DNA of 64,000 nucleotides from Acidobacteriota bacterium (GTDB lineage Bacteria > Acidobacteriota > Terriglobia > Bryobacterales > Bryobacteraceae), in assembly GCA_017307505.1 (NCBI GenBank), contig JAFKEE010000036.1:1-64000 (forward strand), in the 5' to 3' direction. A model generated the notes under the pieces. It was not told the origin of the DNA. It made no database searches and was given only the letters and a program-made list of their open reading frames with translations. The position numbers and the translations under genes are program-made. Shown piece after piece: positions 2,627-8,466 of the stretch; position 1 is the first letter of the stretch, and each line of letters opens with the position of its first letter.

Positions 2627-2812
2627 AGGGTAATTCTATATTCGCCCGGACTGGAAGCCGCGACGGGCATGGAGAACCAGTATTGCCGGCCTGTCCAGGC
2701 ATCGTTGTCTGTCGCATTCCGTGCCGCAAGCTCAGGGATCCAAGCTCATCGGGGGCCTGCAACCGGGAAAATGAACCGATACACTAGGTGCTGCCGATTC
2801 CGGGAGTCCACG

Positions 2813-4966
2813 ATGCCTAGCCGCCCCTTCTGCCTGCCCCGCTCACTGTCCCTGTTGTTCGCTGCTTCGATGATATTCGCAGTGAATGGCCAATCGCCTG
2901 AACCGAAGAACTGGGCCGCCGCCGAGGACCATCGCAATATGATGGAGCAGCTTGGGATCAAGGCTCTGCGGCCAGGACCGAGCGGCAACGAGAACGCTCC
3001 GAATCACGCGAATTACGACGAAGGTGCTGCTAATCCTTTTCCGGATTATCCGGCCATTCTGACGCTGAAGAATGGACAGCCGGTCACGACGGCGGAGGTG
3101 TGGTGGAAACAGCGGCGGCCGGAGATCGTGGAAGACTTTGACCGCGAGGTGCTGGGCCGGGTTCCTGCTGTCGTTCCGAAGATCACCTGGACCGTCACCA
3201 AGACGGTGAACGATATGGTGGGACCCTATCCCGTGGTTGCGAAGGAACTCACCGGCCGTGCGGATAACAGCTTGTGCCCTTCGATCAGCGTGGAGATCCA
3301 GATGGTGGTGGTGACTCCGGCCTGGACGAAGAAGCCGGTGCCGGTGATGATGATGTTCGGCCGGGCGGCATTGCCCTCCACGCCGTTGCCTGCGGCGATG
3401 GCGCGATTTGCAGCCATGGCCGGGACGGATCCACCCTCGACGATGCAGTTGATCGCCTCCGGTTGGGGCTACGCGATGCTGAATCCGGGCAGCGTGCAGG
3501 CCGACAATGGCGCGGGCCTGACCAAAGGCATCATCGGGTTGGTCAACAAGGGCCAACCCAGGAAGCCGGACGATTGGGGCGCACTGCGGGCCTGGGGTTG
3601 GGGCGCTTCGCGCGGCTTGGATTATCTGGAGACGGATCCAGCCGTCGATGCGAAGCATGTAGGGATTGAGGGCGTTTCTCGCTACGGGAAAGCGGCCCTG
3701 GTCACTATGGCTTACGATTCGCGGTTTGCTGTGGTGCTGGTGGGCTCCTCTGGCGAAGGCGGAGCCAAGCCGCACCGCCGGAACTTCGGCGAGGCCGTGG
3801 AGAACCTGACGGGCTCCGGCGAATACCATTGGATGGCCGGCAACTTCCTGAAGTATGGGGCGGCGGAAGCCACGTTTGGGAGCAAGAACGCAGGCGACAT
3901 TCCGGTGGACTCTCACCAGTTGATTGCCCTGTGTGCGCCGCGGCTCACCTTTGTCAGCTATGGCATTCCCGAGAAGGGCGACGCCAAGTGGCTCGACCAG
4001 CAGGGCAGCTTCATGGCTACAGTGGCTGCGGGTGCGGTGTTCCGGTTGCTTGGAGTGAAAGATCTTGGGGTGGCCGGGGATTACCGGACCGCCAAAATGC
4101 CAGGGGTGAATGTGAGCCTGCTGGACGGGCAACTGGCGTGGCGGCAGCACGACGGCGGCCACACGGACGGCCCGAACTGGAAGTACTTCATCCCCTGGGC
4201 GAGCAAGTTCATTTCCTACGTGGGCGAGCCGGCTCCGCCGATCGCGGCGGATGTGGCGGCGCCGCGCCTGGACGCGAATTCGATCGTGGCGCATGGACAA
4301 CTGGTGGAGAAGGCCAAGAAGGGCCGCATCGACATCTATTTCGAAGGCGATTCGATTACGCGGCGGTGGGGCGCCACGGACTATCCGGAGTTCCTGGCGA
4401 ACTGGAAGAGGAATTTCTCCGGTTGGAACGCGGCCGACTTTGGGTGGGGCGGTGACCGGACCCAGAACATCCTCTGGCGGCTCAACAACGGCGAACTGGA
4501 AGGGGTGAATCCGAAGGTCGTGGTGTTGATGGCCGGCACGAACAACATCGGTTCGAGAACGGTGCCGGGCTCGGAAGCTGCGGTGATCGCCGATGTCACC
4601 AAGGGCCTGCAGGCTGTCGTGGAGGCGATCCGAAGCAAGGCGCCGAACGCAACGATCCTCGTCACCGGGATCTTCCCGCGCAACGACAATATGGCGGCGA
4701 TGCCGGTGATCAACGGGATTAACGTGAATCTGGCTAAGCTGGCCGACGGCGCCAAAGTCCGGTATCTGAGCATCAACGACAAGCTCGCCGACAGCAAGGG
4801 TGTGCTGAAGCCGGGCATGATGAGCCCGGACAAACTGCACCCGGTGGAGCGGGCCTATCAGGTCTGGGCCGACGCTTTGAAGCCGATGTTTCAGGAGTTG
4901 CTGGGTGCGCCCGCGCAGGAGGATCTGGCTCCGCCACCCACGGGCGATCCCAGCGCACGCAGGTAA
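2813..4966 (+). CDS. Two-domain esterase: CE15 glucuronoyl esterase fused to SGNH hydrolase
   Basis: A 717-aa exported enzyme starting at ATG 2813, which gives a clean signal peptide (MPSRPFCLPRSLSLLFAAS...NGQ); a longer frame upstream lacks one. Residues about 60-470 match CE15: the nucleophile motif GVSRYGKAAL holds Ser289, followed by GEGGAKPHRR, the CAPRL segment and HDGGHTDGPNW with the catalytic-His region (His446/His450). Residues about 500-700 are an SGNH hydrolase: FEGDSITRRWG (Ser514), GWGGDRT, GTNN (575-578) and DKLHP with Asp673/His676. CE15 enzymes cut the ester between lignin and 4-O-methyl-glucuronoyl xylan; the SGNH half probably removes acetyl groups. A terminator follows at 4995. 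Confidence 0.9.
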   Translation: MPSRPFCLPRSLSLLFAASMIFAVNGQSPEPKNWAAAEDHRNMMEQLGIKALRPGPSGNENAPNHANYDEGAANPFPDYPAILTLKNGQPVTTAEVWWKQRRPEIVEDFDREVLGRVPAVVPKITWTVTKTVNDMVGPYPVVAKELTGRADNSLCPSISVEIQMVVVTPAWTKKPVPVMMMFGRAALPSTPLPAAMARFAAMAGTDPPSTMQLIASGWGYAMLNPGSVQADNGAGLTKGIIGLVNKGQPRKPDDWGALRAWGWGASRGLDYLETDPAVDAKHVGIEGVSRYGKAALVTMAYDSRFAVVLVGSSGEGGAKPHRRNFGEAVENLTGSGEYHWMAGNFLKYGAAEATFGSKNAGDIPVDSHQLIALCAPRLTFVSYGIPEKGDAKWLDQQGSFMATVAAGAVFRLLGVKDLGVAGDYRTAKMPGVNVSLLDGQLAWRQHDGGHTDGPNWKYFIPWASKFISYVGEPAPPIAADVAAPRLDANSIVAHGQLVEKAKKGRIDIYFEGDSITRRWGATDYPEFLANWKRNFSGWNAADFGWGGDRTQNILWRLNNGELEGVNPKVVVLMAGTNNIGSRTVPGSEAAVIADVTKGLQAVVEAIRSKAPNATILVTGIFPRNDNMAAMPVINGINVNLAKLADGAKVRYLSINDKLADSKGVLKPGMMSPDKLHPVERAYQVWADALKPMFQELLGAPAQEDLAPPPTGDPSARR

Positions 4967-4994: not shown

Positions 4995-5030
4995 GAGCAC
5001 GGTGTACCGGCAGGCCACCGTGCTCTTTTT
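4995..5030 (+). terminator. Rho-independent terminator after the CE15-SGNH gene
   Basis: Perfect 10-bp stem GAGCACGGTG (4995-5004) / CACCGTGCTC (5016-5025), 11-nt loop, then TTTTT. It lies 28 bp after the stop codon. Confidence 0.85.
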
Positions 5031-5053: not shown

Positions 5054-5191
5054 CTACGCGCCGGCGTAGGAGAGCCACACGAGTCCGCCGAGGCCGATCA
5101 GGACCATGTAGAGTCCCGGCAAAAGACCGGTCCACAGTTCCCATCGCAGAGGATGCGGATTGCGGCGGGCGCTGCTGCGTGTGGGCTTCAT
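5054..5191 (-). CDS. 45-aa single-pass membrane protein, coupled to the gene before it
   Basis: The ATG at 5191 overlaps the stop of the preceding gene (ATGA, 5188-5191), a standard translational-coupling arrangement, which is the main reason to believe so short a frame. The product has a basic N-terminus (MKPTRSSARRNPHPLRW) and one hydrophobic helix (residues about 21-43, rich in Leu and Gly), so it should sit in the inner membrane with its basic end in the cytoplasm. No family was recognised. It is the third gene of a minus-strand cluster that starts with a Fur-type domain protein at 5778. Confidence 0.65.
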   Translation of the reverse strand: MKPTRSSARRNPHPLRWELWTGLLPGLYMVLIGLGGLVWLSYAGA

Positions 5192-5436
5192 AGCCCTTCC
5201 AGTCCCGGCGGCATGCTGCCCGGTAGTTGGTGGGGCGCGTTCATCCGACGGCTGTGCAACAGAAGTTCGAACTGGGCCGCACTGGTATTGAGCAACGCGG
5301 TGAGTTGCATATAGGCCTCCGGAGTCAGGGTGAGGCTGACCGGCCCGACACTCAGGTGCAGGTTGCCGCATCCGCCACAGTCATAGATCCGGCCAAAGCC
5401 CGGGATCTCCGCCAGAACATATGCATCCGCTTCCAT
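5188..5436 (-). CDS. Small CxxC-H protein, unknown function
   Basis: An 82-aa protein. I chose ATG 5436 because GAGAGG lies 7 nt upstream; a TTG nine codons earlier is the alternative. Residues 20-27 read CGGCGNLH, a Cys-x2-Cys-x3-His group that could bind zinc or iron, followed by a beta/helix stretch (LSVGPVSLTLTPEAYMQLTALL). I recall similar CGNxHLxxGxxxL sequences in small bacterial proteins but cannot name a family. It lies between a Fur-family metal-domain gene and a tiny membrane-protein gene, so a role in metal handling is an inference from neighbours only. Confidence 0.65.
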   Translation of the reverse strand: MEADAYVLAEIPGFGRIYDCGGCGNLHLSVGPVSLTLTPEAYMQLTALLNTSAAQFELLLHSRRMNAPHQLPGSMPPGLEGL

Positions 5437-5541
5437 GTTTCCGCCTCTCTTGTAAATGGCCAACGGCCTGCTCCAACGATGTCCGTACCAGTGACTGGGC
5501 GAACCTGGGCTTCTGGTGCGGAAAAGATGCCCCGCGGAGGT

Positions 5542-5778
5542 TCAGTGCTGGTTCGCCGACTGCCGGATCCGACAGGAGCGGCAGTGCCCTGTCGCCCCCA
5601 GGCGCACAGCCTGGATGGAGTAACCCGTCGTGCGGGCAATCTCGTCCCTGACTACAGCAAACAGGGGGCTGGCAAACTCCTCGACACGGCCGCAGCCCAA
5701 ACACTCCACATGGATGCGATCGGTCCGCGTCTGTTGTTTAGCGGGGTACGCCGTTTTGCCGGTTTCCGTGGGTCCCAT
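5542..5778 (-). CDS. Fur-family protein reduced to the C-terminal metal-binding/dimer domain
   Basis: The 78-aa product aligns by eye with the second half of Fur/Zur/PerR proteins: HVECLGCGRVEEF (as in HLICxxCGKVIEF), a helix with RDEIARTTGYSI, then GHCRSCR. Both structural-zinc Cys pairs are present (Cys26/Cys29 and Cys66/Cys69), as is the His at Cys minus 3 (His23). The winged-helix DNA-binding half (about 80 aa) is absent. An in-frame TAA lies about 24 codons upstream with no ATG, GTG or TTG between, and the other frames upstream show no winged helix. It heads the cluster with the CxxC protein and the membrane peptide. It could be a metal sensor, a decoy dimer partner for a full Fur protein, or a relic. 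Confidence 0.7.
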   Translation of the reverse strand: MGPTETGKTAYPAKQQTRTDRIHVECLGCGRVEEFASPLFAVVRDEIARTTGYSIQAVRLGATGHCRSCRIRQSANQH

Positions 5779-6114
5779 GGGGTTCAGTTCGCTCGCTGAG
5801 AGCGCGCCGGAGTCCCCAGTCCAGTCTCTCTCCGCTCCAGATTACTAGGGCGGCCTGAATGAGTCAATACATATTTGCAAATGAATTGCAGATTCTGGAG
5901 TGGAAGCGATGATGGGAGCATACTGATTCCAAGGGATCATTCCCGAAGGCGAGGCGACGCCGGACGGAGCCAGATTCTCTGTGAATTGCGGGAAAATGAC
6001 GTATGTCTCCATTCGCTTTGGCGGAGGCCACCAACTCGCAGGGTAGAGACAGCATGGCATCTCCAATGCAAATCGTTTGCTTCTGCTCCCGGTATGGGCC
6101 TCGCTGGAAGCCGC
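5779..6114. promoter_or_regulatory. Region upstream of the Fur-domain cluster
   Basis: About 340 bp between two minus-strand genes. On the minus strand TTGACT (5867-5862) is followed 15-17 nt later by weak -10 candidates (AGTAAT or TAATCT). Directly upstream is a perfect 10-bp palindrome ATTTGCAAAT (5873-5882), AT-rich against the local background and well placed for an activator or metalloregulator. No gene was found here. The promoter assignment is tentative. Confidence 0.35.
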
Positions 6115-8466
6115 TCAGCGCAGGTATCGCTCCAGCCAGGCATAGATGCGCTTCCACACGTCTTCGATATTGGCGGGCGATTCGAGGACGTGCCCTTCAC
6201 CCCAGTAGCGGACGAAGTCGGCGGGTTTGTTCTGACGGTAGAGGGCCGTGAAGAACTCCTCGCCCTGCTGGATGGGCACGTAGTCCAGGTCCCCTTGGAC
6301 GATGAGAACCGGCGTAGTGACGCGGTCGGCCTGGGTGATGGGGCTGTTGCGGAGGTAGCGCTCGAGGTCCTGCGAGGGCGGGCCACCCATGCGGTCCTGG
6401 CCGGATTCAAGGAGCGGCATGTGGAGCAGGCGGTCGCGGGCGAATTCTGCATAGCGGTGGCGTGGATCCAACTGGCCGTAGAGGCTCACCAGATTGCAGA
6501 AGCCACCCAGGGCGATGGCCGCCTGGAAGCGCTGGGACTGCGTGACCATCGCGTAGGTGCTGTAGCCGCCGTAGCTGTGGCCCATCACAGCCAGGCGCCG
6601 CGGATCGGTGAATCCGAGCTCGATGGCTTTGTCCACAGCAGGCAGAACGGCTTTCGGGATGTCGAGATAGGGGTCGCTGGGCTGGCCTTCGGGGGCGAGG
6701 GGCATGCTGGGCATCACCACGACATAGCCGCGCGCGGCCAGAAGTTGCAGGTTGAAGACACCGGATGAGTTCAAGGGGACCCAGAAGGGCGGGGGCTCGG
6801 GCCCAAAGGTGAGACCGCCATAGAGCCAGAAGACTGTGGGATAGGGTTTGCCCTTCTCATAGCCGGGCGGGCGGAGGCACCAGGCAATCAGCGGCTTGCC
6901 GTCGGCGCCGGAGTACTCGTACTTCTCGAGAGTTCCAGAGGCAATCTGCTCCAGGAACTGATTCGCAGCTTGGAGGCGGCGGGGTAGCGCCGCACCTGGC
7001 TTGGAGGCCCAAAGGAAAGAGCCGCCCGGCGTCACGTCCTTGAATAACACCGTCGTCGACGAGGCGGAAAAGTCGGCGAACTGGGCGGTGGGACTCGGCG
7101 CTTCCATGGGAAGGAATGATCGCTGCCGGGTGTCGATCACATAGAACCGCCGGGCGGCCGTGACGATGAGAGTATCCGTGGAGGAGCCATCGGTGGGCCA
7201 AACGATGCCGTCGATGCGGGGTGAGGCGTTCGATTCGTTCAGGGGCTCAAAGGACGCGGACCCTTTGCGCATGATCCAGAGCCGGCCGTCGGCCACCGCA
7301 GCCAATTCCTTTAAAGAGCCGAACTGGACGAGCGTGGACGGTGGCCGGGTCATGGACACTGTCAGGTTGGCCGGCGCTGGACCTCCGACGACAAGCCAAT
7401 CCGCACGTCCGTTCGTGCGAGCCTGCACGAGCAATCGTCCGTCGGGAGTCCACTGCGCACCGCGTGCGGAGGTGATGATTCCTTCGTAGCCAGGAACAGG
7501 GCGAAGAGAGCCGCCTTCGATGTCAAAGCGCGAGACGCGCGGTCCTTCGGGCGTATTGGCCACATAGGCCAGGGCGCTACCGGAGGGCGACCAGCGCACA
7601 GACCCCGGGATCACATCATTGGAGGAGGAACCAGCTATGGGCAGGCGCCGGCCCTGGGCGTCCACCACAACGAGGCTGTACTTGGAAGGGTTGCGGTTGG
7701 GCAGCACACGGCCTGGTTCGGGCTGAAGGATGCCAGTGAGTTCTAGCATGGCCACATGACGGCCGTCCGGTGAGGGCGTGAGATTGGTGAAGTTTCCGGA
7801 CTGGAGTTGCGTGACGGCGCCGTTGGCGAGATCGAACTGGAGCAGGCGGCCCTGCGGGCGTCCGGTCATGTCGAGTGGTGCTCCGCTGTGAAGGACGCTG
7901 GCAGTGCTCACGCGGCCGGCCCAGGCCAGCGGCCAGACACGCATGGCTTCCTCGGGCGCCTGGGTCTCGAGCGAATAGACTGCGGACTGTCGGCCTGGCG
8001 GCGGCGTGGCGCAAAGCAGTTTCGCCGGGCCGATCCAGACCGGCCGCGCAACCTCCACGGTTTCGCCGGCAGCGAGGCGCAGGGCTCCCGTGGCACGGGT
8101 CCATACCCAGAGCCGGACCTTGTTCCCGCGCGTGGACAGCATCGCCAGACGCCGGCCATCGGGCGACCATACAGGCTGGAAGAAGCCCGAGCCATCCGCA
8201 GCGCCGTCGGTGATGGGTCGTGGCGGGCCGCTGAGCGGCGCGATCCAGATGTCGGCACGGTCATTGCCACTCATGAAGTCGCGCATCGAGTTGGCCGCCG
8301 AGGTGCGGGCCCGGATGCGAACGAAGGCGAAGAGCTGCCCGTCGGGCGACGCCGCCGATTCGCCAAACTGCTCGATGCGGAGGACATCCTTTGGAGTGAG
8401 CGGCCTGAGAGCGGGAGCCGCCTGCAAGGCCAGGAGGAAAGGAACGGGAATCCAGCGGAGGGACAT
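6115..8466 (-). CDS. Secreted prolyl-oligopeptidase-family (S9) peptidase
   Basis: A 783-aa product with a signal peptide (MSLRWIPVPFLLALQAAPA). The middle part carries TolB/WD-like beta-propeller repeats (SPDGRRLAM, SPDGRHVAM, TPDGRLLVQ), as expected for the S9 propeller lid. The C-terminal alpha/beta-hydrolase domain has all three catalytic residues: Ser631 in GHSYGGY, Asp728 in GDLDYVP and His759 in GEGHVLESP. Such enzymes trim short peptides outside the cytoplasm. It is divergent from the LRR gene at 8681 and appears monocistronic. Confidence 0.92.
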   Translation of the reverse strand: MSLRWIPVPFLLALQAAPALRPLTPKDVLRIEQFGESAASPDGQLFAFVRIRARTSAANSMRDFMSGNDRADIWIAPLSGPPRPITDGAADGSGFFQPVWSPDGRRLAMLSTRGNKVRLWVWTRATGALRLAAGETVEVARPVWIGPAKLLCATPPPGRQSAVYSLETQAPEEAMRVWPLAWAGRVSTASVLHSGAPLDMTGRPQGRLLQFDLANGAVTQLQSGNFTNLTPSPDGRHVAMLELTGILQPEPGRVLPNRNPSKYSLVVVDAQGRRLPIAGSSSNDVIPGSVRWSPSGSALAYVANTPEGPRVSRFDIEGGSLRPVPGYEGIITSARGAQWTPDGRLLVQARTNGRADWLVVGGPAPANLTVSMTRPPSTLVQFGSLKELAAVADGRLWIMRKGSASFEPLNESNASPRIDGIVWPTDGSSTDTLIVTAARRFYVIDTRQRSFLPMEAPSPTAQFADFSASSTTVLFKDVTPGGSFLWASKPGAALPRRLQAANQFLEQIASGTLEKYEYSGADGKPLIAWCLRPPGYEKGKPYPTVFWLYGGLTFGPEPPPFWVPLNSSGVFNLQLLAARGYVVVMPSMPLAPEGQPSDPYLDIPKAVLPAVDKAIELGFTDPRRLAVMGHSYGGYSTYAMVTQSQRFQAAIALGGFCNLVSLYGQLDPRHRYAEFARDRLLHMPLLESGQDRMGGPPSQDLERYLRNSPITQADRVTTPVLIVQGDLDYVPIQQGEEFFTALYRQNKPADFVRYWGEGHVLESPANIEDVWKRIYAWLERYLR

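Follow-up and report, generated by a model that had tools for sequence, protein, structure and literature searches.

Fur proteins have been studied as two-domain sensors. According to section 6 of PMC11353095, the regulatory metal site of Fur is made of a histidine and a glutamate of the DNA-binding half, two histidines of strand β3 and one glutamate of strand β4. The respective roles of this site and of the cysteine site have recently been re-examined for E. coli Fur, and the passages of that study that deal with the cysteine site report that Zn or a [2Fe–2S] cluster bound there is necessary and sufficient for dimerization, and that the H90A substitution has no effect on the binding of Zn or [2Fe–2S] at this site (PMC12538065). 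Among the papers listed in searches of the open-licence PMC literature, none describes in its title or abstract opening a Fur protein devoid of the winged helix. The protein considered here is a Fur dimerization half that is kept by selection.

It is encoded in a stretch of 64,000 nucleotides (positions 1 to 64,000 of contig JAFKEE010000036.1, from an Acidobacteriota bacterium of the Bryobacteraceae), which we call the window; the genome of the window is denoted G000. The genes A, B and C and their surroundings are as follows.

Positions 5542–5778, minus strand: gene A, 78 aa, a stand-alone Fur C-terminal (dimerization) domain whose residues 1–16 form a low-confidence tail.
Positions 5437–5541, minus strand: gap of 105 nt separating A from B; in G005, TonB-receptor and Kelch/DUF4198 genes occupy this place.
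Positions 5188–5436, minus strand: gene B, 82 aa, with a CGGCGNLH motif (C-x2-C-x3-H).
Positions 5054–5191, minus strand: gene C, 45 aa, with a single hydrophobic segment (identified by eye).
Positions 6115–8466, minus strand: S9-type peptidase gene flanking A-B-C.
Positions 2669–4966, plus strand: glucuronoyl-esterase/GDSL gene flanking A-B-C on the other side.

The three open reading frames listed in a first-pass annotation of this DNA were recovered at the same positions, all on the minus strand, and B and C, which it had described as translationally coupled, share a 4-nt ATGA overlap between the stop of B and the start of C. A codon-pair model, whose training set consists of the window and the fetched loci, calls A, B and C in the window with scores of 14.7, 34.7 (B as a longer form of 91 aa) and 20.5, respectively. 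In the flanking plus-strand gene (2669–4966), glucuronoyl-esterase-like and GDSL lipase domains are fused in a single open reading frame. On the plus strand, a strong hairpin with a run of T residues behind it lies at 4995–5025 (−21.3 kcal/mol, z −2.97); it is likely the terminator of this gene, which faces the A-B-C operon, and it was not reported by the terminator scan.

The product of A matches the Pfam FUR profile (PF01475) with 25.3 bits (cut-off 23.1), over profile positions 65–118 of 121 only, and the nearest solved chains in a sequence search of the PDB are those of Fur and PerR, matched over their C-terminal parts. The AlphaFold single-chain model of the 78-aa protein predicts the Fur C-terminal fold, strand–strand–helix–strand–helix, from residue 21, mostly with pLDDT >90. 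The 50 Foldseek matches listed for this model are all Fur-family proteins by title; 7 of them have E <0.001, and the best is 9a4a_B, by title a chain of a YlaN–Fur model. All this agrees with the earlier description of A as the metal/dimer half of Fur and nothing else.

The structural Cys4 site, which consists of two CxxC pairs, is present in A as it had been described (Cys26/29 and Cys66/69). Its four cysteines are invariant across an alignment of 25 rows, and the site is intact in the four proteins that are reduced to the C-terminal domain (hereafter CTD-only), those of G000, G005, G006 and G051. As for the regulatory site, the claim that the conserved histidine is kept holds for His23, and Glu34 is also retained, but the other regulatory position on β3 is Arg21. 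The His-x-His motif of β3 is found in the 19 full-length proteins compared, in an alignment from which rows L152, L056:2709, L139 and L140 were dropped. None of the four CTD-only proteins has it intact: A reads Arg-x-His in G000, G005 and G006, and the protein of G051 reads His-x-Arg, while both regulatory ligands of the DNA-binding half are missing with that domain. Since the CTD-only proteins lack one regulatory histidine although they keep Cys4, A is unlikely to be a Fur-type metal sensor, and the proposal of a metal sensor in the first-pass annotation is weakened, all the more so as the ligands of the lost half would be needed. Occupancy of the cysteine site is reported to suffice for pairing in E. 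coli Fur, so A should have what is required for pairing, without what is required for sensing or DNA binding. A would thereby separate the role of the Cys4 site (pairing, Zn/[2Fe–2S]) from that of the regulatory site (sensing for DNA binding).

The preservation of Cys4 in the four CTD-only proteins, alongside a decaying regulatory site, also speaks for a different function, in which A would be a stand-alone Zn- or [2Fe–2S]-binding homodimer, working with B and C and not touching any full-length Fur (for example as a protein that reports iron or cluster status). The Fur proteins of E. coli and H. influenzae are reported to bind a [2Fe–2S] cluster, which is in favor of this idea. We consider it rather unlikely, and come back to it below with the gene context.

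Among 101 genomes, the short form of A is found with high identity in G006 (90%) and G005 (63%), which belong to the same genus. The occurrence of the same short open reading frame in these two genomes (2 and 3 contigs) led us to reject a frameshift or an assembly error. As the first-pass annotation had argued, A is not a frameshifted gene: when full-length winged helices are compared by tblastn with the 336 nt upstream of A, in any frame, only noise is obtained (best E 0.27), as it is upstream of A in its relatives (best E 0.11 in G005, 0.13 in G006 and 0.91 in G051), whereas the true frameshift of G245 shows a winged helix. The control searches gave best E values of 2e-58 for an intact locus and 5e-43 for the frame-shifted one.

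The domain of A is under strong purifying selection. The dN/dS ratio of A (Nei–Gojobori) is 0.084 between G000 and G006, and 0.154 in comparisons with G005, for which dS is about 2 and near saturation. When the G000/G006 comparison is split, dN/dS is 0.043 for the domain (4.5 nonsynonymous changes over 136.7 sites versus 22.5 synonymous changes over 46.3 sites, dS 0.78) and 0.43 for the N-terminal tail, which shows that the domain is the part that selection retains. The codon-pair model gives scores of −1.5, −3.5 and −9.0 to A in G006, G005 and G051, respectively, and A is not called in these genomes. It is important to note that, of 16 full-length relatives, 9 also score below zero over the same domain. 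Codon usage is therefore uninformative here, and it is homology and dN/dS that identify A as a gene. The reading of A as a pseudogene was set aside, being disfavored by dN/dS, with codon usage neutral.

It may still be argued that A is a disappearing relic, kept only through recent common descent. The winged helix and the operator are gone, the receptor and Kelch genes are also gone in G000 and G006, related loci have decayed, have a replaced 3′ end or are frame-shifted (G102, G207:C28 and G245, respectively), and the codon score of A is below zero in three of the four genomes. We find this improbable: a domain dN/dS of 0.043 at a dS of 0.78 goes against it, as does the likeness of the promoter region and its box in three genomes (see below), and the codon score is equally low in the 9 of 16 full-length relatives mentioned above.

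A profile built from A and its relatives detects, in 237 genomes of the family, a subfamily of 23 loci in 21 genomes, with scores of at least 78 bits, ordinary Fur proteins scoring at most 64 bits. Sixteen members are full-length, four are CTD-only (G000, G005, G006, G051) and three are broken; four late start calls were rechecked. Fur domains without a winged helix, which the first-pass annotation had advised looking for, are thus present in related genomes. The broken members are frame-shifted (G245, L140), have an internal deletion (G102, L139) or a replaced 3′ end (G207:C28, L132), and since they are broken in such different ways, this local repressor seems to have been lost often.

The winged helix is present in the full-length relatives, whether they come from other genera or from the same genus (G007), which indicates that A is a derived truncation. 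The first-pass annotation had noted that a winged helix in relatives would make A a local truncation; such a helix does exist in the full-length subfamily, G007 included, but it is absent from the two orthologues of A (G005 and G006), and A is under purifying selection. We are highly confident in this anatomy and origin of A.

In a class-wide search of 399 genomes (E 1e-17 or better), the scores of the subfamily grade into those of other Fur proteins with no clear gap, and frames shorter than 110 aa are found in G000, G005 and G006 only; G814 has a frame of 119 aa, close to the start of its contig. Among the best 80 of 424 relatives from named genomes, a scan that may omit records of the window's own genome or of near genomes, the winged helix is lacking only on the contig of G051; another relative is cut by a contig end. 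G010:C119 resembles the G051 type; it is cut by a contig end, its frame ends differently from that of G051, and it was left out of the counts. A proper is thus limited to three genomes, plus G051 and perhaps G010:C119. To explain the CTD-only genes, the tree (built without the L132 row) requires two changes, and 0% of 200 bootstrap trees give one, although the bootstrap is not settled; in an AU test based on 54 columns, with 18 of 23 inner branches open, a single origin is not rejected (p 0.33). Two independent truncations, one in G000/G005/G006 and one in G051, are the favored scenario on these alignments.

A TonB-receptor-type gene adjoins 10 of the 16 full-length members, as judged by BLAST to reference proteins. 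The eight neighbors that were tested (in G007, G010, G016, G208, G222, G240, G239 and G036) all have Pfam TonB/outer-membrane-barrel domains, and a ninth, in G106, is a fragment of 265 aa with the plug and carboxypeptidase-regulatory domains only. A would be the surviving dimerization half of a local Fur-family repressor that was dedicated to a metal-uptake operon with a TonB receptor.

The full-length genes have a palindrome of their own. TGCGA-N5-TCGCA lies near the start in 16 of 20 full-length leaders (18 of 20 when mixed half-sites are included), versus a mean of 0.035 over 200 shuffles; the 20 leaders are those of the 16 members of the family, three from other families and the frame-shifted G245, and each spans 350 nt upstream and 130 nt of the gene. 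On the contrary, none of the four CTD-only leaders has it. Across 13 genomes that bear a full-length gene, the exact form, TGCGAC-N3-GTCGCA, has 13 sites (7 for the control pattern), which is little overall excess, with 10 of these 13 sites located at the subfamily gene. The four CTD-only genomes have 6 sites (control 3), none of them at A, and the four sites inspected are within called genes; a single site (control 5) is present in 12 genomes that have neither a full-length nor a CTD-only gene. The full-length protein therefore looks like a local autoregulator in terms of sequence, and the presence of this palindrome at the subfamily gene and its absence at A suggest that the lineage of A has lost the reader and the site together.

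Another palindrome precedes A.

Positions 5876–5890, minus strand: palindrome TGCAATTCATTTGCA (TGCAA-N5-TTGCA), an iron-Fur-type box that lies 97 nt ahead of the start codon (ATG) of A.
Positions 5839–5867, minus strand: promoter TTGACT (5867–5862), 17 nt, TAATCT (5844–5839), read by eye.

The box is 8 nt upstream of the −35 hexamer, a layout that is shared by G005 and G006. The promoter scan of this stretch reported no promoter at its threshold, and a scan of the window alone for the box with two mismatches gave 3 matches versus a shuffle mean of 1.21, which is not significant. In a comparison of leaders, TGCAA-N5-TTGCA is found in 11 of 28 (those of A, of the full-length genes and of the first B loci, the 20 phylum-wide B loci L144–L163 being excluded), versus a shuffled mean of 0.007. 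It precedes A in three of the four CTD-only leaders (G000, G005 and G006, not G051), 4 of the 20 full-length genes, and four B/TonB or B loci (G036, G047, G012 and G065). The perfect palindrome is present neither in the 20 phylum-wide B loci (L144–L163) nor in L066. At the scale of whole genomes, 36 sites are found in six genomes versus 8 for the control, and a stricter form gives 15 sites versus 2 in 32 other genomes, including genomes without the subfamily.

In G000, four of the eight box sites are 20–212 nt before a gene, the other four being intragenic or unclearly placed. The genes so preceded are A, a ferritin-like (Dps-like) gene, a gene whose product is a TonB-type outer-membrane protein, and a TonB-receptor gene with PKHD-hydroxylase and PepSY genes behind it. 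These neighbors look iron-related, which is why we read the palindrome as an iron-Fur box and set aside a nickel regulator, which the likeness to the Nur-type box had brought up. The TGCAA-N5-TTGCA sites would make up an iron-Fur regulon, and A would be under iron control, its box being presumably bound by the iron Fur.

The geometry of the promoters was compared by aligning 24 box sites, with hexamers assigned by eye. The box lies within the spacer between TTGAC-type −35 and −10 elements at a large TonB-type gene of G000, G005 and G006. It is 8 nt upstream of TTGAC at A (in three genomes), at the full-length genes of G036 and G007, at the TonB-B cluster of G036, and also at sites that precede PepSY genes in G005 and G006. 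The remaining aligned sites have neither placement clearly; loci L053, L054, L059, L060, L055, L187 and L189 illustrate the two placements. It may be that these correspond to activation and repression through the same box, and the position of the box 8 nt upstream of the −35 element at A implies that the protein bound there could activate as well as repress. The TonB-type outer-membrane gene with the box in its spacer (L181, L184 and L190, in G000, G006 and G005, respectively) adjoins VgrG-like and PAAR genes, neighbors that resemble a type VI-like spike and were tested with Pfam in G000 only.

The first-pass annotation suggested that conservation of the three-gene order should be looked for. 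The order is intact in G000 and G006, with A, B and C side by side, but two genes interrupt it in G005, and no other case was found. The order in G005 is A, TonB receptor (799 aa), Kelch/DUF4198 (523 aa, the DUF4198 match being below the Pfam cut-off), B and C, with successive intergenic gaps of 57, 81, 18 and −4 nt. Related arrangements are a row of full-length Fur, B, TonB and Kelch genes in G239 and a TonB, B, Kelch and CbiX cluster in G036. The receptor and the Kelch protein have no match at E 1e-20 in G000 and G006, which suggests that A, B and C have outlived their former operon partners; B and C would then be co-oriented helpers remaining from the receptor operon. The persistence of A in G000 and G006, without a full-length subfamily member, a receptor or a Kelch relative, is compatible with the stand-alone homodimer described above, but many genomes have B without A, which counts against it.

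Across the phylum, 28 of 396 genomes have a member of the B family (E 0.001). In its 27 members aligned, the first cysteine and one glycine are invariant and the histidine is nearly so, and the dN/dS of B between G000 and G006 is 0.031. The model of B has four strands and a long helix, and Foldseek finds nothing at E <0.001 in the PDB; the best plausible match, 2it9, an uncharacterised Prochlorococcus protein, was discarded as too weak (probability 0.90, E 1.4). In the 20 B loci examined, a TonB-receptor-type gene is close by in 8 (BLAST), and a gene for an S4 ribosomal-protein-like protein lies within about 3 kb in 6 (L145, L147, L150, L152, L153 and L155). The Pfam domain was confirmed for two of them, and no cysteine is present in the first 45 residues of these S4-like proteins. 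Cys-free paralogues of ribosomal proteins often belong to metal-starvation regulons, and the S4-like genes near B could fit a zinc control.

C has strong matches only in G000, G005 and G006. Weak matches occur in a further 29 of the 237 genomes (E 6e-4 to 0.047); chance would give about 12 at 0.05, and scores of this kind are inflated by hydrophobic segments. C looks restricted to the genus. Its dN/dS is 0.198 between G000 and G006, and up to 0.37 in comparisons with G005. The first-pass annotation proposed that A, B and C form a metal sensor or carrier acting at the membrane, in favor of which are the co-directional genes, the B/C overlap, the hydrophobic segment of C, the conserved Cys/His motif of B and the TonB-receptor-type genes near 8 of 20 B loci. 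However, A has only remnants of the Fur sensing site, C is credible in three genomes only, and in G005 two genes stand between A and B, so that there is little chance that this proposal is correct.

Instead, we favor the idea that A acts on Fur. Since A has no DNA-binding domain, its effect should come via protein contact, and we infer that A is most likely a Zn- or [2Fe–2S]-binding pairing protein under iron control, which perhaps pairs with the Fur of the cell. Upon iron shortage, the general Fur would change its hold on the box and A would be made; A would then bind Zn or a [2Fe–2S] cluster at its four cysteines, dimerize, and pair with or titrate a full-length Fur of the cell, as an anti-Fur or the dominant-negative partner already envisaged in the first-pass annotation. 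G000 encodes three full-length Fur-family proteins (C59, C32 and C74); C59 shares 29% identity with A, and neither of the other two matches A at E 0.01. As this genome has no full-length member of the subfamily of A, a partner could only be a distant Fur.

That A is the surviving half of a local repressor, now a Fur-pairing protein, is the best overall explanation that we can offer, and we put it forward tentatively. The mechanism in which A would antagonize Fur by hetero-pairing is possible, and we rank it first; the stand-alone Cys4 homodimer comes next. A more specific scenario is that the repressor was remodeled in place, its DNA-binding half and operator being lost and its pairing half being recruited to antagonize the global Fur, under iron regulation and without contact with DNA; this is doubtful in our opinion, and it may have happened twice (in G000/G005/G006 and in G051). 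If it were true, A would be a natural dominant-negative Fur, with a positive feedback under iron shortage. A would also be a natural case of a repressor turned into a modulator that acts by protein contact, with the loss of the operator visible in the genomes.

Regarding known systems, 4 of 27 members of the B family match DUF6686 (PF20391) weakly around the Cys/His motif (best E 0.0048); three of the matches have scores of 11.7, 15.7 and 17.3 bits, below the cut-off of 23.9, and the B of the window has no match. The box upstream of A has the half-sites and the spacing of the Nur box of Streptomyces coelicolor, whose proposed consensus is tTGCaa-N5-ttGCAA (PMC3919588), but the neighbors of the box in G000, which are ferritin-like, PKHD-hydroxylase and PepSY genes, suggest that iron is a better candidate than nickel. 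A resembles the proteins of the Fur family (Fur, PerR, Zur, Nur; PF01475) by its dimerization fold, its four structural cysteines, Glu34 and one regulatory histidine. It differs from them in that the winged helix and its ligands are absent, a β3 histidine is replaced by an arginine and the palindrome of the subfamily is missing. Last, A would be similar to Fpa (YlaN), the Fur antagonist of Bacillus and Staphylococcus covered in the review PMC13343841, should the antagonist model be right, with the difference that A is itself a Fur domain.
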